IMG/VR virus record: IMGVR_UViG_3300014962_000020
Coordinates: 1-38,540 of that record
Source of the DNA: a virus
Length of the DNA: 38,540 bases
Strand: one strand, 5' to 3'
Each line of letters starts with the position of its first letter. The stretch's first letter is position 1. The translations under genes and the position numbers were made by a program. The notes beneath the pieces were generated by a model. That model had not been told where the DNA came from, searched no databases, and saw nothing but the letters and a program-made list of their open reading frames with translations. This document shows, piece after piece, positions 14,795 to 26,258 of the stretch.

Positions 14795-16666
14795 CTACTG
14801 GTAGATACCGTACTGTTCCATGAAAATCTCGTCCAAATTCACAACCTGCCGATTCGCGTCAGCCCGGCGCGAAGTCCAACGGGATCCCGCATGGAAAGTC
14901 TTCACCTGATTCGCCAGAATCAGCTCTCTAGCGCGAATCTCGCAAAACCAGAGAGCCATCACCAAGTCGGTCGGGCCTTTAGTGTCCGCCTTCCAAGTGA
15001 TCAACTGGTTGATCAAAGCCTTCAAATGCTCGTTGCCCAAATGGTCGGGCAAAGATAAAAGATTATCCCCCTGATGTTTCCCGTCCCGCAACGTCCCAAA
15101 CAGACTGGACATGGCTGCCACACCGAACGCGGTATCCCACTTGTTCTTACCTGTGAAATGCTGGCGCAAAGCAACACCCCTGGATGCGAGCCACTGGTTC
15201 AGCTCGGTATCCAAAGCATATGCTTTCTGGTGGGCGTTGATCTCGATCCGCAACTCCATCGGACGATAGCGGTCAACCCAGTCTTCCATCAAAGCACGGA
15301 TCTTCTGGGGAGTCGGATCCGACATGTTGTAGGCATCCAACACCAGACGCTCACCAGTGTTCCGCTCGACCGCGTACATGACGGCAGCAGTCTTCCCGGT
15401 CATAGCCGGATCCAAACCCATCAAAGTGACCCATTGGCCGCCTTTAGGGTGGCCTGCCGTACCGTGGTTGATCGGCCCTGGTTTACGCATCCTGTTCACA
15501 GACGAGTGGACACAAGCAGGCGGGAACACCGCGTCCTCTTCCACATCCTGCTGCTGGTAGACCAACGCCCAAGTGGAGGCTGAAACCTCTGAACGGCGGG
15601 AGAACAAAGCCGGGCCATCCCATTTAGGGTATTCGCCGTTCTCGTCCGGTTCGTCATCGGAACCGTCCCAAGGCCGATCCGATTTAGGCCACAAAGTCAC
15701 CCAATCCTCAGGATCGTCAGCGAACTCCAACACGGCAGGCATCGACAGCTGGGTGAACGGAGACCTGCCGCCAGACCAGTTGTCAGGCTCCATCAAAGCC
15801 TTGTACAAATCCATAGAGGCGACACGGGTACCGGCGATCACCAGCACCCCAGTCTTGCCTAGACGGGTCACAACCATCTTCTGCAGCCAATCCAGCTGCT
15901 TCTCCCACTCGTGGGCGTTCGACGTGCCCACAATATCGTCCAAGATGATCAAATCGAGGCGGGCACCGTAAATCTGCTGGCCGACACCCAAAGCTTGGAC
16001 AGTCGGATCCTTCTCACCTGAAGTGCGTTGCAGGTAAATCTGGTCTTGCGTCCACTGGTCGGAAGTAGCCTTCCAGCCTTCAGGAGGCCCGTAGGCTTGC
16101 TGCATCCGAAGCCAAGGTTCCTCAGTCAAACGCTGTTTGATCGAGTAAAGGAACTCTTTAGCCCTTTTCTGCGTTTGGGAGATGACCGCCACCCGGACGT
16201 TCGGATCCATACAAATCCTGTACACAGGATAGCCGACTGTCAACACAGTCGATTTCGCATGCTCGGGCGGGACGGTCACCAGGAGCCGTTTCGGGTTCGC
16301 CACCTGATAGGTCATAGAGTCATGGAGGAAAGAAGGCTCCCGGCCTTCCAACACATCCACCCACGTCTGATGGTGGGGGAACACGCGGCTGTTCAAAAAC
16401 TCTTTCGAGAAGGTAGCGTAGTCGATCTTGTGGCGATCCAACCCGATCAGGGATTCCAGCTCGGCAGCCCCCTGGCGGCCAGCCTCCTCCACTTGGGCGG
16501 CGAACACAGGATCCCTCAGCCAAACCTTCTGGGTCGCCTCGTTGCGGCCCACAGCCCCCATAGCGGAACGGATATCGACCCCGGTGCGGAGAAGATGCAA
16601 AACCTTCTCTTTATCCTCACGCATGGCTTTAACCTTGTGGTGTTCCACACCACCTCTAGCAGCCAT
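14795..16666 (-). CDS. terL: Terminase large subunit
   Basis: 623 aa motor that packages DNA into the procapsid. The ATPase domain has a variant Walker A, VPPEHAKST (132-140), and Walker B LIILDD (239-244), followed by a coupling motif with VIAGTR at about 276-281. The nuclease domain has an RNase H-like first acidic strand, LMGLDPAMTG (D419), a second acidic strand LRIEIN (E475), and a C-terminal DLVMAL (D567). All are in the expected order. The N-terminal 70 residues (LLRTGVDIRSAMGAVGRNEA) read like a helix-turn-helix, perhaps replacing a separate small terminase subunit, which I did not find. It is the first gene of the late operon, with TTTGGAG upstream of the ATG. Confidence 0.95.
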   Translation of the reverse strand: MAARGGVEHHKVKAMREDKEKVLHLLRTGVDIRSAMGAVGRNEATQKVWLRDPVFAAQVEEAGRQGAAELESLIGLDRHKIDYATFSKEFLNSRVFPHHQTWVDVLEGREPSFLHDSMTYQVANPKRLLVTVPPEHAKSTVLTVGYPVYRICMDPNVRVAVISQTQKRAKEFLYSIKQRLTEEPWLRMQQAYGPPEGWKATSDQWTQDQIYLQRTSGEKDPTVQALGVGQQIYGARLDLIILDDIVGTSNAHEWEKQLDWLQKMVVTRLGKTGVLVIAGTRVASMDLYKALMEPDNWSGGRSPFTQLSMPAVLEFADDPEDWVTLWPKSDRPWDGSDDEPDENGEYPKWDGPALFSRRSEVSASTWALVYQQQDVEEDAVFPPACVHSSVNRMRKPGPINHGTAGHPKGGQWVTLMGLDPAMTGKTAAVMYAVERNTGERLVLDAYNMSDPTPQKIRALMEDWVDRYRPMELRIEINAHQKAYALDTELNQWLASRGVALRQHFTGKNKWDTAFGVAAMSSLFGTLRDGKHQGDNLLSLPDHLGNEHLKALINQLITWKADTKGPTDLVMALWFCEIRARELILANQVKTFHAGSRWTSRRADANRQVVNLDEIFMEQYGIYQ

Positions 16667-17209: not shown

Positions 17210-17259
17210 TTATCCACAGAATATCCACAAGATGTGCATAACAATAATAGTTATCCACA
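17210..17259. other. DnaA-box cluster, candidate replication origin
   Basis: Two perfect TTATCCACA boxes (17210-17218, 17251-17259), one reverse-strand TGTGCATAA (17233-17241, i.e. TTATGCACA) and one near match ATATCCACA (17221-17229) lie within 50 bp. All but the last fit the consensus TTATNCACA. Weaker TGTGGAT elements occur at 17303-17309 and 17463-17469. The cluster sits where the + strand changes from A/C-rich to G/T-rich and between the two divergent operons, as expected of a bidirectional, host DnaA-dependent origin. Confidence 0.65.
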
Positions 17260-17483: not shown

Positions 17484-17642
17484 TTGTTACTGGCGGGTAG
17501 AAATTGGTTGTTCCGTTTCTGGCGTTTCTCGTTTACCCTCTTCTCATGCGGCCCGCAGGCCCGCCCCTCATTACGGGTGGAGTACCTAACGGCCCCGCTT
17601 GTACCTTCTCAATTCAATAGTGGAAAGCTCCCCTTCAAGGTG

Positions 17643-17729
17643 GCCCACAGCCCGACCGCTTGGCGTGTCTGTGGGTTGCCTTGGCTCCACTGGCATTCGG
17701 CCGGCGGGGATCAGTTAGGGAGATAGCAA
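17643..17729 (+). promoter_or_regulatory. Leader element M0
   Basis: First and most divergent member of the two-hairpin leader family. Stem 1 is CCCACAG/CTGTGGG (17644-17675) with a long loop, extended by AAGG/CCTT outside. The segment ends with GGGGATC then TTAGGGAGA, the ribosome binding site, 8 bases before the ATG. Hairpin 2 is less clear than in the other copies. Confidence 0.5.
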
Positions 17730-17960
17730 ATGGATGATCTAACGACGACGACAGAGGCGGCCATTGACGTGGCCGCCGATGCTCTGCGCAATGCCGCTTG
17801 GGATCTACAGAGAGAGGCGGCCAATTGGCAACGCATGCTCGACGAGAACGCCGAAACGATGGACTACGCGAACAACCGCGAGAACGCGGTTAGGCGTGTC
17901 GAGTATCTATTGAAGGCTGCTTGCTTGCTCGATGATGCGCGGCGGTTCATGACGGCATAG
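17730..17960 (+). CDS. Early protein of unknown function, helical
   Basis: 76 aa, first gene of the rightward operon. It is all-helical in character with acidic and alanine residues (AAIDVAADALRNAAWDLQRE, then VRRVEYLLKAACLLDDARRF). An AGGGAGA ribosome binding site lies 8 bases upstream of the ATG. First-transcribed early phage genes often encode host-takeover proteins; nothing in the sequence shows its target. Confidence 0.75.
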   Translation: MDDLTTTTEAAIDVAADALRNAAWDLQREAANWQRMLDENAETMDYANNRENAVRRVEYLLKAACLLDDARRFMTA

Positions 17961-17963
17961 TGG

Positions 17964-18043
17964 CTGACGGTTGGGCAGGGAACCTAGGTTCCCTGCCTTT
18001 CCGCCTGCAACTAGGCAGGGATCGAGTAGGGAGAGGAAATATC
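17964..18043 (+). promoter_or_regulatory. Leader element M1 (two hairpins plus AGGGAGA)
   Basis: TGACGGTTG, then a perfect 24-base palindromic stem at 17974-17997 (arms GGCAGGGAACC), then TTTCCG, then hairpin 2 CCTGC/GCAGG with loop AACTAG (18004-18019), GATC and the AGGGAGAGG ribosome site. The outline is shared with M2-M5. Confidence 0.72.
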
Positions 18044-18235
18044 ATGAGCAAACATGCTCCCGCTACCGTAGAGCATGCGGCGGAGATTAAACTGCGCGTT
18101 GTGTTTCACGCTGGCGCGGATTTGACTGCGGATCAGGTGAGAGCGGCGGCGGTAGACGTTATCGTTTATGCGCTCGACTGCGGCGGCGACATGGACAGAG
18201 AGTTTTTTGACGCTGTGGAGGTCGAGCTGATCTAG
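18044..18235 (+). CDS. Small early protein
   Basis: 63 aa, MSKHAPATVEHAAEIKLRVV onwards; I see no motif. It has a beta strand (IKLRVVFHAG), a helix (TADQVRAAAVDVIVYALD) and an acidic C-terminus ending EVELI, a pattern like a small alpha/beta fold. I chose the ATG at 18044 over upstream in-frame codons because the upstream sequence is the structured leader M1 and the ribosome site AGGGAGAGG fits this ATG. Confidence 0.72.
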   Translation: MSKHAPATVEHAAEIKLRVVFHAGADLTADQVRAAAVDVIVYALDCGGDMDREFFDAVEVELI

Positions 18236-18309
18236 TGGTGAACGGTTTGCCTAGGGCAATTGCGCTAGGCTTTCCGCCTATCACTAGGGTAGGAAGATAT
18301 GGAGGAAAC
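18236..18309 (+). promoter_or_regulatory. Leader element M2
   Basis: GAACGGTTT, then stem 1 GCCTAG/CTAGGC with an inner GCAATTGC (18249-18270), then TTTCCGCC as in M1 and M4, then hairpin 2 CCTATC/GGTAGG with loop ACTAG (18277-18293), and the ribosome site GGAGGAAA before ATG 18310. Confidence 0.7.
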
Positions 18310-18609
18310 ATGCTAGAAAGCGGCGAGACACTAGACATTATCTGGCGGATCTTGGATCAGGCTCGCGCGGCATCGGCCGGCGGGAATTGCGAGTCTGACG
18401 AAGACACACTGTGGCGAATCGACTATGCGCTCAACGAATGGCGGCACAGTCCCGATGCGGGACTATTGGGGATCACTTGCGGCGATTGCGGACGGCTGTG
18501 CCGTGCGCATGACGGCTCTTCGGGTTGCGTGACAGTGTTCGGGCCAGAAGGTGCCGCATGGTGCTATGAGTGCGCGAGGGTCAACGGCAGAATGAGGGAT
18601 AACGTCTAG
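18310..18609 (+). CDS. Small zinc-binding early protein
   Basis: 99 aa. The N-terminal half is helical (TLDIIWRILDQARAA). The C-terminal half carries ITCGDCGRLC and later WCYECARV, i.e. two CxxC pairs about 30 residues apart, with GCVTVFGPEG between them, a plausible treble-clef or zinc-ribbon. The start follows leader M2. Small zinc proteins of this type are common in early operons of actinobacteriophages; the partner is unknown. Confidence 0.73.
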   Translation: MLESGETLDIIWRILDQARAASAGGNCESDEDTLWRIDYALNEWRHSPDAGLLGITCGDCGRLCRAHDGSSGCVTVFGPEGAAWCYECARVNGRMRDNV

Positions 18610-18614
18610 TGGTT

Positions 18615-18689
18615 GAGCATGGCTTAGCGGCGAAAGTCGCTAAGCCGTGTCCTGTAACTAGGCAGGAACAACTAAGGGAGAATAAACAA
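18615..18689 (+). promoter_or_regulatory. Leader element M3
   Basis: Stem 1 is an 11-bp hairpin beginning GGCTTAGCG and closed by a GAAA tetraloop (18621-18646). Hairpin 2 is CCTGT/GCAGG with loop AACTAG (18651-18666), almost the same loop as M1. Then CTAAGGGAGAA, the ribosome site for ATG 18690. Confidence 0.72.
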
Positions 18690-19310
18690 ATGAAATTCGA
18701 AATTTCTAGTGACGGCTTGACGGCTTTGGCAAGTGTTGGCGCATGCGCCAGCACTCAAGACAACCTAGCGCACCTGACTGGCGTTTATATCGTCGCGGAT
18801 CATTCCGGCATTGAGTCGGCCGCAACGGATCGGTTTAGACTGGCCGTTATTCGATTCTTTGACGGCGCTAACGGATTAAAGGTGCTTAGTGAGGGTTCGG
18901 TATTGATCCCCGCAAAGGAGCTGCAACGTGTCGCCAAGGCTCACAGCAAGGCACGCGGGCTAACTGTCACAGTGTCGGAAGATGGGGAATTTTTGACGGT
19001 CGCGGATAGGGAGAATTCGACAACTATTCGCACACTTAAAGGGTTTAGTTTCCCTGACCGGTATCGGGATCTATTGCCTGCCTATGGGCCAGAGGGGAAC
19101 CCCGAGCCATGCGGCACGGCTAAATTAAACGTTGAGTATCTAGCGACCTTGGCTAAACTCAAGCCTTGGCTCGGGTTGCTCAAGCCGTCGGGTGATGCCT
19201 CTAATCATTGGCGGGTATTCCCTGGCAAGTCCGGCAAGCCGTGGCTCTACACTTGGGAATATGCAGGCGTTAGCGCGGAATTTCTGCTGATGCCTATTCG
19301 GAACAATTAA
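18690..19310 (+). CDS. Truncated DnaN-like sliding clamp
   Basis: 206 aa. Residues 28-53 (AHLTGVYIVADHSGIES then ATDRFRLAV) match the core of bacterial beta-clamp domain 2 (L-x-G-V-x-x-x-x, A-T-D-G-H-R-L-A). Residues 71-83 (VLIPAKELQRVAK) and 116-130 (LKGFSFPDRYRDLLP) match the following helix and the 'G-x-F-P-D-Y' strand. Residues 146-156 (LNVEYLATLAK) and the C-terminus EFLLMPIR match the end of domain 3, where bacterial clamps finish with MPMR or MPVR. A normal subunit is ~370 aa with three domains; here domain 1 and part of domain 3 are absent. It probably tethers host polymerase III or acts as a decoy. No phage polymerase is present. Starts after leader M3. Confidence 0.75.
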   Translation: MKFEISSDGLTALASVGACASTQDNLAHLTGVYIVADHSGIESAATDRFRLAVIRFFDGANGLKVLSEGSVLIPAKELQRVAKAHSKARGLTVTVSEDGEFLTVADRENSTTIRTLKGFSFPDRYRDLLPAYGPEGNPEPCGTAKLNVEYLATLAKLKPWLGLLKPSGDASNHWRVFPGKSGKPWLYTWEYAGVSAEFLLMPIRNN

Positions 19311-19318
19311 ACGGTTGT

Positions 19319-19401
19319 CTGACGGTTGGCTAGGTGCGGATTCGCACCTAGCTTTCCGCCCGCTAACCGTTGCGGGATTAGATCAAGGGAGAAATTTAGA
19401 A
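19319..19401 (+). promoter_or_regulatory. Leader element M4
   Basis: TGACGGTTG, stem 1 of 10 perfect base pairs (GCTAGGTGCG/CGCACCTAGC, loop GATT, 19329-19352), TTTCCGCC, hairpin 2 CCCGC/GCGGG with loop TAACCGTT (19359-19376), then GATCAAGGGAGAA. The loop AACCGT could pair with the ACGGTT upstream, a possible pseudoknot. Confidence 0.73.
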
Positions 19402-19704
19402 ATGCGCTCTATATATGTTGAACAGCGAAATTGGTTTGATAAAGCGGCCGGAAATTCGTATTTCTCGGCGCGTGTGTTTGTTGATGGTAAGTGCGTGGCC
19501 GTTCTGCCGATGCAATACGGCTACGGCGATGCGGCAAGTTATGCAGCGTTAGTAGCTTTGAAAGAGGCCGGAATCACTCCCGCCGAATTCGAAGATCGTC
19601 GGCCGCTTTGGCAGTTGCGCGATTTTGGGTTTACCGTTCATACGGCTCCGCAAGTGTGGGGGCCGAAGAAACTGTGCAAAGAGTACGGAGAGGGGAACAT
19701 CTAG
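19402..19704 (+). CDS. Conserved-type early protein, WFDKxxGN family
   Basis: 100 aa. The opening IYVEQRNWFDKAAGNSYFSA is followed by RVFVDGKCVAVLPMQYGYGD, a pattern I recall in many phage proteins of unknown function (R-x-W-F-D-K, G-N-x-Y-F-S-A, Q-Y-G-Y-G). An Ala-rich helix and a basic C-terminus follow (WGPKKLCKEYGEGN). The start at 19402 follows leader M4 with AGGGAGA. Probably a small beta-sheet protein. Confidence 0.75.
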   Translation: MRSIYVEQRNWFDKAAGNSYFSARVFVDGKCVAVLPMQYGYGDAASYAALVALKEAGITPAEFEDRRPLWQLRDFGFTVHTAPQVWGPKKLCKEYGEGNI

Positions 19705-19705
19705 C

Positions 19706-19855
19706 ATGTTCGAATTTATGCTTGCCGCCGCTAGTGTCATTCTTTCCTTCGGGGTCGGATTCAAACTAGGAGCTAACGAGCAACGCCGCATTGATCTACG
19801 GCTAGTACACACTAGGCGCGAGGGTCATGCGGGCCGGCCGACTATTCACCTTTAG
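19706..19855 (+). CDS. Small membrane protein, 49 aa
   Basis: Starts MFEFMLAAASVILSFGVGFK, one hydrophobic segment of about 16-18 residues, followed by a basic tail (NEQRRIDLRLVHTRREGHAG). The ATG lies one base after the stop of the previous gene, with GGAGAGGGG about 10 bases upstream. A membrane-anchored early protein; superinfection exclusion or an inhibitor is possible, but the sequence does not tell. Confidence 0.6.
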   Translation: MFEFMLAAASVILSFGVGFKLGANEQRRIDLRLVHTRREGHAGRPTIHL

Positions 19856-19859
19856 ATAG

Positions 19860-19940
19860 GCGGATATTCGCCCACGAGGGTTAATCCTCGTGGGCGTTTA
19901 CCCGTAGATCACGGGATCAAATATTAGGGAGAAATAACCA
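19860..19940 (+). promoter_or_regulatory. Leader element M5
   Basis: Stem 1 is 11 perfect base pairs (CGCCCACGAGG/CCTCGTGGGCG, loop GTTAAT, 19869-19896). Hairpin 2 is CCCGT/ACGGG with loop AGATC (19901-19915). Then GATCAAATATTAGGGAGA before ATG 19941. Confidence 0.72.
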
Positions 19941-20440: not shown

Positions 20441-20631
20441 CTGATTCCACCTAGGCAAGTGGCTAAACTGCCTACCGAAACTTTTACATATTGTCAAACA
20501 TAAATCAACATAAATAAACATTCGCGGATTTGGCGGATTCCGCGCCGCACAGAAACTCTAGGTTTCTGGAATTGTGGTGGCGGATCCAATAGGATCGCGG
20601 ATCTAACCTTCTAATCCGAAAGGAAACTATT
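20441..20631 (+). promoter_or_regulatory. Spacer with three hairpins ahead of the WhiB-like gene
   Basis: TAGGCA/TGCCTA (20452-20474), AGAAAC/GTTTCT with loop TCTAG (20551-20567), and GATCC/GGATC with loop AATA (20583-20596), then GAAAGGAAA before the ATG. The AT-rich stretch at 20485-20520 may contain a promoter (TTGTCA is present), but no clear -10 can be fixed. Confidence 0.5.
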
Positions 20632-21078
20632 ATGGAAAACTGGTATGACGAAACCCCCTGTCGGGGTTTGGAATTTGTATTCGACATGGATCCGGACATC
20701 ACCCGTAAAGTCGATGCGAACACTAAACATCTTATGGCTATGGCTATCGAAGTGTGCGAGTCGTGCCCGGTGCGGGCCGAGTGTTTGGCGGATGCGTTGC
20801 AATACCGCGAGCAAGAGGGGATTCGGGCGGGTTTGACTCCGCGCCAGCGTATGAAGCTCGTCTCCCCGTCTGTGTTGTCATGGTCGGATCGACAGGCGAA
20901 GATCCTGTCTGAGCGGCTTCGGTTGAAGAATGAGAAAGACAACCAGCATGGCCTTAATTCGCCTTCCTGGCGACGTGGATGCGATTGCGCTATCTGTCGG
21001 TACACATCGACTGCCGAGCAGGAGATCGCGGCCAGAGAGGCCCTTAACGAGCGTTCTAGAAGGTCTCGTGCGAAGTAG
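20632..21078 (+). CDS. WhiB-like iron-sulfur transcription regulator
   Basis: 148 aa. Cysteines C10, C42, C45 and C51 give the C-x31-C-x2-C-x5-C spacing that holds a 4Fe-4S cluster in WhiB proteins, with VCESCPVRAECLADAL around the last three. GIRAGLTPRQR follows at about 63-73, at the place of the usual G-[VI]-W-G-G turn; here R replaces W. WhiB proteins bind the primary sigma factor and occur in Actinobacteria and their phages, the best host evidence here. A C-terminal extension has a second Cys group (GCDCAICRYTS), a motif common in actinobacteriophage proteins. It probably alters host promoter use. Confidence 0.88.
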   Translation: MENWYDETPCRGLEFVFDMDPDITRKVDANTKHLMAMAIEVCESCPVRAECLADALQYREQEGIRAGLTPRQRMKLVSPSVLSWSDRQAKILSERLRLKNEKDNQHGLNSPSWRRGCDCAICRYTSTAEQEIAAREALNERSRRSRAK

Positions 21079-21379: not shown

Positions 21380-21401
21380 ATGTCGTCGCTTTACGCCCAT
21401 C

Positions 21402-21417
21402 GCTCCGACAGCGGAGC
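21402..21417 (+). terminator. Possible intrinsic terminator
   Basis: GCTCCG-ACAG-CGGAGC hairpin 23 bases after a stop codon, followed by an AT-rich stretch (ATTCTAATTAAATAAA) with no pure T-run. Weak as a terminator, but the position before a new leader fits. Confidence 0.4.
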
Positions 21418-21494
21418 ATTCTAATTAAATAAATATATACAGCGCAAACCGAAAAGTTTTCGGCGTGTCGCGACCTTCCGGCAGGACTGTGTGC

Positions 21495-21595
21495 TACTGT
21501 CGGAATATGGATCGGCCTTCTCCCTGGCTGATCCAACTAGGAGGGGGCTGGTGATCTCCGTTATCTCCCTGACGATGCTGATCCCAGCCTCCTCC
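21495..21595 (+). promoter_or_regulatory. Structured leader of the replication genes
   Basis: TACTGT (21495-21500) fits an actinobacterial -10, and the ATG at 21507 would then start a leaderless 15-codon frame. Two helices follow. The first is GGATCGGCC/GGCTGATCC (21509-21534). The second is a 12-bp stem pairing GGAGGGGGCTGG (21540-21551) with 21584-21595 using one G-U. The second stem buries the GGAGGGG ribosome site of a 25-codon frame starting GTG 21551 (product MISVISLTMLIPASSAQKFL...). This resembles an attenuator or leader-peptide arrangement upstream of 21644. Confidence 0.5.
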
Positions 21596-21643
21596 GCCCA
21601 AAAGTTTCTCAACAACGAGAATAAGTGAAGAAAGGAAACCATT

Positions 21644-23479: not shown

Positions 23480-23542
23480 ACCTTGCTCATTCTCCTGGGT
23501 ATGAGGATAAACTGCCCACTCAAACATATTCTAGGGAGAATT

Positions 23543-24322
23543 ATGAGGAATCTTTCTAAAGCCGTCGGCAAACCAGACTTAGGCGGCGAATCGCTACCAG
23601 TAGTGTTCAAGACTTTGGACGACAGCGGTGTCTCTATCCGTCGTAGCGAGTTGACTATGGTCGCCGGTGTTCCTGGGGCGGGTAAATCCACGATCGCTTT
23701 GGCTATCGCCCTACGGGCAGCAGTTCCGACACTCTATATTTGCGCTGACACTAACGCGCACACGATGGCTATGCGCTTGTATTCGATGATTACCGGCCAG
23801 TCCCAAAGGGATTCGGAGCGGATCCTGTTGGAGCAGCCGCATATGGCGCGGGAGGCTTTGAATATGGCCCGCCACATTTTCTGGTCGTTCGACTCGGCAC
23901 CCACATTGAACGATATCTATGACGAAGTGTTCGCTTTCACCGAAGTATGGGGCGATAGCCCCCACCTGATTGTGGTGGACAATCTAATGGATGTGACTTT
24001 GGATTCAGGCGAGGAGTTTGCCGCTATGCGGACGATCATGAAAGAGTTCAAGTTCATGTCCCGTGACACTAACGCCTCTATCATGGTGTTGCACCACACT
24101 TCGGAAGCGTATAGCGGGGATCCGTGTCCCCCGTTGCGGGCTGTCCAAGGGAAAGTGAACCAACTACCCGCTTTGATTATGACAGTCGGCCAGCAAGGCG
24201 GCCTGCTCGGTGTCGCCTCAGTCAAGAACCGGTACGGTCGGGCAGACTCGTCCGGCATGTCTCCGATATTCTTGCAGTTTAATCCCGAATACATGTATAT
24301 TGCCGATATAGATCACAGATAG
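23543..24322 (+). CDS. DnaB-like replicative helicase (RecA-fold core only)
   Basis: 259 aa. Walker A GVPGAGKST at 42-50; Walker B HLIVVDNLMD at 141-150; sensor segment IMVLHHTSEAY at about 180-190; and KNRYGRADSSG near 235, at the place of the DnaB arginine-finger region (K-x-R-x-G). The N-terminal DnaG-interacting domain of full DnaB (~450 aa) is missing, so this is a core helicase. I chose ATG 23543 because CTAGGGAGAA lies 4-5 bases upstream. It probably unwinds the origin with the split primase encoded downstream. Confidence 0.85.
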   Translation: MRNLSKAVGKPDLGGESLPVVFKTLDDSGVSIRRSELTMVAGVPGAGKSTIALAIALRAAVPTLYICADTNAHTMAMRLYSMITGQSQRDSERILLEQPHMAREALNMARHIFWSFDSAPTLNDIYDEVFAFTEVWGDSPHLIVVDNLMDVTLDSGEEFAAMRTIMKEFKFMSRDTNASIMVLHHTSEAYSGDPCPPLRAVQGKVNQLPALIMTVGQQGGLLGVASVKNRYGRADSSGMSPIFLQFNPEYMYIADIDHR

Positions 24323-25454: not shown

Positions 25455-25696
25455 ACCACGAACCTGAATGTCCATACAACGATGCGTCGCTAGTCCCGAC
25501 GCGCACCTTCTTCGGTGACGTGGAGGTTTCTGTGGGCTGCACTTTCTGTGGAGTCATCCGTGCCGCCTACCAGCGTGGTCGTGAGGACGCAGCAAAGGCG
25601 GTTGAAAGCGTAAAGGACTACCACGGCGGGAGCGGCGTGCTGGTCAATCGCAACTTCGCTGCCGCAGCTGCCCGTGGGGACGGTGAGCAGGCATGA
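25451..25696 (+). CDS. Module-type zinc-binding protein, paralogue 1
   Basis: 81 aa. Module A, at residues 1-50, is HEPECP...CTFCGVIRAAYQRGREDAA; the C-terminal module is VLVNRNFAAAAARGDGEQA. Module A recurs in the next two genes, and the C-terminal ARGDGEQ in paralogue 3. The start is a GTG overlapping the previous stop. Probably binds zinc through the Cys pairs and is helical after them. Confidence 0.68.
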   Translation: MNHEPECPYNDASLVPTRTFFGDVEVSVGCTFCGVIRAAYQRGREDAAKAVESVKDYHGGSGVLVNRNFAAAAARGDGEQA

Positions 25697-26007: not shown

Positions 26008-26258
26008 CCCACGAACCTGAGTGTCCGAATCAAGGATTTTCCTTAGCCCAATGCCTTGCCTGTGACGCTTTGCGTGCCGCCTACCAGCGTGGTCGTAAGG
26101 ACGCGGCAATCGCAGTTGGTAGTAATAATGTGCAGGACTTGGCTGAAAGCGGTGAGGGCATCATCGTGCAAGTCTCTATTGGCAAAAACCAGCGAAATGT
26201 ATATGTCAACTGGGAGAAAGCAATCTCGCTGGCCCGTGGGGATGGTGAGCAGGTATGA
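26004..26258 (+). CDS. Module-type zinc-binding protein, paralogue 3
   Basis: 84 aa. Module A (HEPECPNQGF...CLACDALRAAYQRGRKDAA) is followed by a beta segment (EGIIVQVSIGKNQRNVYVNW) and the shared tail ARGDGEQV. Its ATG overlaps the paralogue 2 stop, as in the other members. Confidence 0.68.
   Translation: MTHEPECPNQGFSLAQCLACDALRAAYQRGRKDAAIAVGSNNVQDLAESGEGIIVQVSIGKNQRNVYVNWEKAISLARGDGEQV

Follow-up and report, generated by a model that had tools for sequence, protein, structure and literature searches.

A repeated, covarying RNA element with two competing folds at the early-gene junctions of a family of uncultured viruses

Background

The 38,540-base virus record IMGVR_UViG_3300014962_000020 (hereafter the window, meaning this whole stretch of DNA) carries on its + strand a run of small genes starting at 17730, and raises the question of what the similar-looking hairpin pairs in several of the spacers between these genes might be. 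A preliminary description of the sequence had assigned one outline to six spacers, namely those before 17730, 18044, 18310, 18690, 19402 and 19941, which we number M1 to M6 respectively (the copy numbering of that description appears to start at zero), and had suggested a switch, a processing site or a translation-control element. The analysis presented here indicates with high confidence that five of these spacers (M2-M6) belong to one RNA family, with related copies in other viruses, in which two helices, termed P0 and stem 2, compete for a common strand. The element is about 62 nucleotides (nt) long and occupies the space between one early gene and the next.

A structured element supported by compensatory changes

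Read 5' to 3', the element starts with one strand of P0 (typically UAGnnGCGG), followed by an A, a closing triplet, UU or similar, and stem 1 of 8-12 base pairs (bp); thereafter come UU, a closing triplet, and the hairpin of stem 2, made up of CCUGC, the loop AACUAG and GCAGG, with a purine-rich ribosome site shortly 3' of it. The P0 helix forms when the UAGnnGCGG-type strand pairs with CUGCnnCUA. In M2, M3 and M5 the common plan is CGG-U(2-3)-stem-U(2-3)-CCG, succeeded at once by a 5-bp hairpin. The segment TTTCCGCC, initially taken for a linker, is not free: over a U-rich internal loop, its CCG pairs with the CGG in ACGGTT and closes stem 1. The pairing of TTTCC with the ribosome site that had also been suggested did not occur consistently in the relatives on inspection. 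The earlier observation that the stems diverge in sequence while remaining paired is borne out in these three copies: both sides are changed in 10 of 19 pairs, a score that none of 500 shuffles reaches, and 96% of the alignment cells are paired, as against 40-49% when the partners are slid. The spacers of M2 to M6 have stem 1 and stem 2 in common, and most of them AGGGAGA as well. Their folding energies relative to dinucleotide shuffles correspond to z-scores of -2.2 to -6.2 (13, 1, 0, 0 and 0 of 500 shuffles being equally stable, in the order of the spacers), and stability exceeds the shuffle mean in all six spacers. Hairpins matching on the opposite strand had far lower scores with the first of the models described next.

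That description had proposed a covariance-model search as one check, and such a search did recover relatives in which covariation is present. A covariance model built from M2, M3 and M5 (R1) matched two further spacers of the window, M4 (E 9e-6) and M6 (E 0.02), and did not match M1. Over 96 related-phage loci (1.09 Mb; loci are cited by L numbers) it gave four matches. All are in L091 and L084, with E-values of 5e-6 to 7e-4, and lie between small genes of an operon divergent from the terminase, as in the window. Further loci were fetched via the L091 terminase and one stem-2 pattern (L134, L177, L222, L239, L221, L216, L228 and others). A second model (R2), made from a 20-copy alignment (A4) with nested fold A, the single long hairpin that includes P0, matched all of M2-M6 in the window with a worst E of about 1e-3; it also added members that had not been selected by the stem-2 pattern, namely L184, L174, L168, L180 and L198/L199, of which L198 had first been dismissed as a chance match and was reinstated after R2 and folding. 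A hand count puts the total at approximately 37 distinct copies, spread over 21 viral contigs, or 16 once near-duplicates are removed. They sit between co-directional genes wherever checked, with as many as five copies in a fetched genome, in the same position before different genes.

Covariation becomes more extensive with these relatives. In A4, 20 of the 23 pairs of fold A show double changes (0/500 shuffles), and 91% of cells are paired versus 33-41% with partners slid; the corresponding values for a 37-row alignment, which was itself fitted to fold A, are 90% and 37-47%. The pairing of a loop with an upstream segment, noticed previously in a single copy, turns out to be a general rule across copies and the strongest feature of the element. 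P0 alone in A4 has double changes in six of nine pairs; its doubly changed cells number 15, compared with 5.4 in shuffles, and 86% of its cells are paired, compared with 14-42% in slid controls. The variants of this pairing comprise UAGU/ACUA, CUGGC/GCCAG, CUGAU/AUCAG, ACUGA/UUAGU, UAAG/CUUA and AACGGUUG/UAACCGUU; in L239 the loop CGCCAG is matched by CUGGC and CAUCAG by CUGAU, in L134 UUAG goes with CUGA, and in both L091 and L134 CUUA goes with UAAG. On the sense strand G.U pairs number 53 and A.C pairs 12, indicating that the paired molecule is the sense RNA. One conserved pair is G.U in 18 of 20 copies, and CCUG/CAGG is conserved as well.

In many copies (L091, L084, L134, L177, L184 and L180) a recurring palindrome, GUCUUAAGAC, forms the top of stem 1, and in the form CUGUCUUAAGACAG it appears in the same loci as stem 2 or as an additional hairpin; it may represent a mobile or preferred hairpin core.

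Two mutually exclusive folds

Fold A comprises P0, which makes the element one long hairpin, while fold B comprises stem 2. The same CUGC serves as the inner 3' strand of P0 and as the 5' arm of stem 2, and therefore the two helices cannot fully coexist; the CUA of the P0 partner lies in the loop of stem 2 and, in a few copies, in its stem. At the one column shared by the two helices, both partners mostly follow the common base: C is accompanied by G on both sides, U by A or G on both, and A by U on both in L168 and L184, whereas a G keeps its pair in stem 2 only. Over 36 copies the mean predicted gain is -8.2 kcal/mol for P0 (shuffled -4.7) and -7.9 kcal/mol for stem 2 (shuffled -2.6), and the difference of fold B minus fold A has a mean of 0.3 and a median absolute value of 1.5 kcal/mol. 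According to the alignments and the folding models, then, both helices are backed by covariation or by stability above shuffles, and comparison and predicted energies together yield two exclusive conserved helices of similar stability, as expected of a bistable RNA. Competition, as opposed to a fixed pseudoknot, is best supported by L180b, L184c and L168c. Their competitor is a different hairpin, GGCUAA/UUAGCC, which captures the P0 partner all the same and buries it in a stem, an arrangement at odds with a permanent pseudoknot.

Association with the preceding stop codon and possible functions

The element was at first regarded as a leader RNA of the following gene; it does precede that gene, but the junction it occupies also includes the stop-codon region of the preceding one. 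In 39 of 39 copies an upstream open reading frame (ORF) stops within -9 to +4 of P0 (the search being limited to -22 to +6), and in 23 of them the stop codon falls at one register inside P0. The stop is UAG in 25 of the 39 copies, compared with 26% of ORFs in these contigs, although the associated p of 8e-7 overstates the significance because the copies are related. In L221, L216, L228, L220 and L239 (copies a, c and d) the stop precedes P0 by 6-9 nt, indicating that the P0 pairing is independent of the stop codon as such; given the ribosome footprint, a ribosome at any such stop would still cover the P0 strand.

Of the initial interpretation, a real, repeated and covarying RNA is supported; among the functions suggested, the exclusive folds favor a switch. 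Specifically, we propose that the element could be a bistable switch coupled to translation termination, and put the probability of this mechanism as a whole at roughly 0.4, on the basis of sequence comparison and predicted folds. During translation of the upstream gene, the P0 5' strand would be covered by a ribosome at that gene's stop codon, and the RNA emerging behind the polymerase would settle in fold B. Where no ribosome terminates, fold A would form first, in this proposal because its strands are made first. The resulting state might then influence the downstream gene through ribosome loading near stem 2, through cleavage or stability of the mRNA, or through binding of a factor, and the presence of the element before many early genes would subject them to one common rule. 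A general dependence of early-gene expression on translation termination at the preceding gene, in distantly related phages, is suggested more tentatively still; under that dependence the stop-codon region would be a covarying strand of the switch, reused at up to five junctions per genome.

Several observations weigh against the termination-coupled switch. P0 lies a few nt past the stop, and not on it, in about a third of the copies, and the intergenic gaps are merely about 64-114 nt, so that nearness to the upstream stop could be at least partly a consequence of compactness. Neither fold systematically masks the Shine-Dalgarno sequence or the start codon, the mean unpaired probability of the ribosome site being similar in both folds of most copies (M1 may be an exception by prediction), and direct masking of the ribosome site is thus unsupported. 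Covariation of stem 2 is weak in A4, which is dominated by CCUGC/GCAGG copies, some of them fetched by that very sequence; double changes in this stem are clearer in M3, M5, L177, L091 (copy d), L168 and L184, at loci not selected by stem 2. The native P0 outperforms the mean of swapped P0 strands in just 29 of 36 copies, and the outer part of P0 could possibly pair with loop 2 as a pseudoknot in most copies.

Scans of the + strand found no terminator between genes and no sigma-70-like promoter in the spacers, the latter being a crude test for this host group; by these criteria the spacers resemble internal junctions of a single transcript. This context would suit mRNA processing, whereby fold A, an imperfect duplex of about 22 bp, would be cut by an RNase III-like enzyme into separate mRNAs, with stem 2 then capping the 5' end of the downstream message. 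While its length, internal loops and repetition resemble the RNase III sites of phage T7, processing leaves unexplained both the near-equal energies and the retained complementarity of the P0 3' partner to a second arm, and we consider it rather unlikely. An operator at which a trans-acting RNA-binding protein of phage or host chooses fold A or B, thereby jointly controlling early genes, would account for the up to five copies per genome before different genes and for the conserved CCUG/CAGG and G.U pair; given that no candidate protein was identified and that the apical parts and loops vary freely, such an operator appears distinctly unlikely. A static pseudoknot, with stem 2 formed and its loop paired upstream as a rigid spacer or roadblock, draws on the fact that in most copies loop 2 pairs with the outer P0; in the structure that combines the two, 92% of cells are paired. 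It is improbable, since the inner P0 (GCGG with CUGC) covaries as well and is incompatible with stem 2, and the partner lies inside a stem in L180, L184 and L168.

Strong GC-rich hairpins in the spacers might call to mind intrinsic terminators or attenuators. However, there are at most two consecutive U residues in the 12 nt after stem 2 in all 36 copies, and together with the absence of hits in the + strand scan this largely refutes intrinsic termination, leaving a nearly negligible likelihood that attaches to a Rho-dependent version. Finally, similar elements before unrelated genes (L084 and L134 compared with L222) would be compatible with a DNA-level repeat that shuffles gene cassettes as a site of recombination or protein binding. 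This is very improbable because the G.U pair kept in 18 of 20 copies and the 53 to 12 strand bias are explained by an RNA of the sense strand and not by DNA. Two translational alternatives were also discarded: for stop-codon readthrough or fusion the frames of the next gene are spread 12/13/11 and the extensions are short in most copies, and for bypass or hopping M2-M4, inspected by eye, lack matching landing codons in a usable frame.

Copies in the window and their genomic setting

All copies in the window are on the + strand. M2 extends from its 5' strand to stem 2 over 17957-18020 (R2 67.3 bits, E 2e-14; a training copy of both models), between genes 17730-17960 and 18044-18235. Its P0 5' strand, AUAGUGGCUG (17957-17966), holds the UAG stop (17958-17960) of the preceding gene and pairs with 18005-18014 as UAGU with ACUA and GC.G with C.GC. 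Folding and covariation define hairpin 1, CGG-UU-11 bp stem-UU-CCG, at 17968-18003; hairpin 2, CCUGC-AACUAG-GCAGG, occupies 18004-18019, with its 5' arm and loop doubling as the P0 3' partner. AGGGAGA at 18028-18034, the Shine-Dalgarno-like site of the gene at 18044, is predicted to be open in both folds. M3 (18232-18294, before 18310; R2 56.5 bits) has the P0 strand CUAGUGGUG, which begins at the stop codon of 17960-18235, and its fold A is predicted to be 5.1 kcal/mol better than fold B. M4 spans 18606-18667, before 18690 (R2 58.5 bits; the R1 that found it was built without it). Directly after the sliding-clamp gene, and before 19402, lies M5 (19310-19377, inverted repeat I2), a training copy of R1 that R2, built without it, matched with an E of 1e-3; its 5' strand AACGGUUG (19310-19317) pairs with the loop UAACCGUU (19364-19371). 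M6 (19854-19916, before 19941; R2 E 2e-4, built like R1 without M6) has a shortened P0, GCGG with CCGU, in competition with CCCGU/ACGGG.

M1, at 17616-17712 before 17730, was delimited by folding and shows a similar plan, with AGUGGA paired to UCCACU around a long stem in competition with a CUCC.CUGGC/GCCGG.GGGG hairpin. Given that neither covariance model matched it in the window, it is retained as a candidate divergent element, and the shared outline first assigned to six spacers applies to five. The UAG stop of a 24-codon ORF (17546-17620, + strand) coincides exactly with the 5' strand of M1, and this ORF is possibly a leader peptide of the first early gene, an arrangement that could also be due to chance.

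The structural genes of the window, including the terminase large subunit (14795-16666), are on the - strand. Among the small genes of the + strand are those for a sliding-clamp-like protein (18690-19310; PF02767, E 1e-9), located between M4 and M5, a WhiB-like protein (20632-21078) and a DnaB-like helicase (23483-24322). The WhiB-like gene and the closest annotated relatives point to an actinobacterial host. In L221, L216, L228 and L220 the element directly follows genes for distant homologs of the sliding clamp, with approximately 25-30% identity to that of the window by blastp; the synteny of clamp and element, represented in the window by M5, is thus conserved.

The relatives bearing the element constitute a family of uncultured viruses. 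Relatives retrieved by DnaB or terminase ran to hundreds of contigs, most of those fetched being without the element or with other intergenic hairpins; since many relatives lack it, the element occurs in part of the phage group. Searches for the clamp gene, the terminase or the element in isolated phages and genome contigs returned nothing useful, and model searches on whole records were lossy. The pattern GCGGAYGRTT brought no new member by R2 among its new loci, and the 11 matches in viral contigs to the exact pattern ACGGTT-TTTCCGCC-ACTAG, none with the structure, were ascribed to chance, as were R1 matches in L157, L164, L197, L219 and L227 and a low-scoring match in L267. Upstream of the terminase in L051, L054, L045 and L048, which are without the element, like junctions bear other intergenic hairpins or short repeated palindromes, e.g. 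GTATCC..GGATAC and TGATCATAATTATGATCA.

Other features of the window include DnaA-box-like sequences in a divergent intergenic region, TTATCCACA at 17210-17218 and 17251-17259 and ATATCCACA at 17221-17229, such that 17210-17259 is a possible candidate for a replication origin. A 59-nt repeat with 81% identity (25546-25604 and 26060-26118) marks two paralogous small genes. The long spacers 20441-20631, which precedes the WhiB-like gene, and 21380-21643 are strongly structured (predicted -50 and -105 kcal/mol) and were matched by neither R1 nor R2.

Relationship to known elements

As originally supposed, no described family fits the element: there was no Rfam match in the window at the gathering score, the best E for the region being 1.4, far below that score, with nothing notable to E 5. 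We rate it as a new RNA family of the bistable cis-acting kind. Among classical systems, phage T7 has RNase III sites, irregular hairpins of about 60 nt, between the early genes of one transcript. The present element recurs between early genes in the same way and is of like size and irregularity, but it has in addition a second helix that competes with the first and a connection to the stop codon upstream, and its cleavage is hypothetical. Among RNAs of bistable translational control, lambda cIII and the coupling of coat and replicase in MS2 provide examples of two competing folds or of structure opened by upstream translation; here, in contrast, the ribosome site is hidden in neither fold, and the element is found at many junctions of one genome.

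In the literature searched, the nearest described elements are the Start Associated Sequences and Extended SAS (SAS/ESAS) and the cluster O repeats; a description may exist elsewhere. Cluster K mycobacteriophages and cluster EF Microbacterium phages carry the SAS/ESAS in about 10-20 copies per genome, just upstream of the starts of small non-structural genes (PMC3203893, PMC7302621). Like them, our element is repeated before small genes in actinophages, immediately upstream of the starts of a subset of non-structural genes, and its ribosome-site motif is preceded by a paired motif. The differences are that its stems diverge while remaining paired, that the stop-codon region joins in, and that there are two competing folds. 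The arms of ESAS are conserved in sequence, and their authors judged RNA pairing to be unsupported (PMC3203893). The 17-bp sequence-conserved inverted repeats of SAS/ESAS were not found, stem 1 varying with compensation, nor was their 13-bp ribosome-site sequence (GGGATAGGAGCCC or GGGAAAGGACCCC) in the window copies or relatives, the former having just AGGGAGA or GGAGG and the latter GAAAGGAUG or AGAGAGAG. R2 had no match in the TM4 and AnnaSerena regions, and although a GTAGAG core has been reported for AnnaSerena, membership in ESAS was rejected. The ESAS of TM4 (L294), for instance at about 4970, 21501 and 25082, form two tandem hairpins with TGTTGA..TCAACA; alternative pairings are possible since both arms and both hairpins repeat, and these ESAS may merit a fresh look as RNA. 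The cluster O mycobacteriophages have 17-bp inverted repeats with sites of recombination (PMC4351075). They share with our element the many copies, partly intergenic location and dyad symmetry, and differ from it in their invariant arms, the lack of a tie to starts, the third of copies inside genes and the absence of covariation (PMC4351075).

With the R1 and R2 models the element becomes searchable and testable. Were the proposed coupling true, it would be an RNA device by which each gene of an early operon signals its translation status to the next, and one that could be reused as a genetic part. To our knowledge, repeated intergenic motifs before small early genes have been known in several actinophages without an explanation; here compensatory changes show that one such motif is a structured RNA whose two folds exclude each other.

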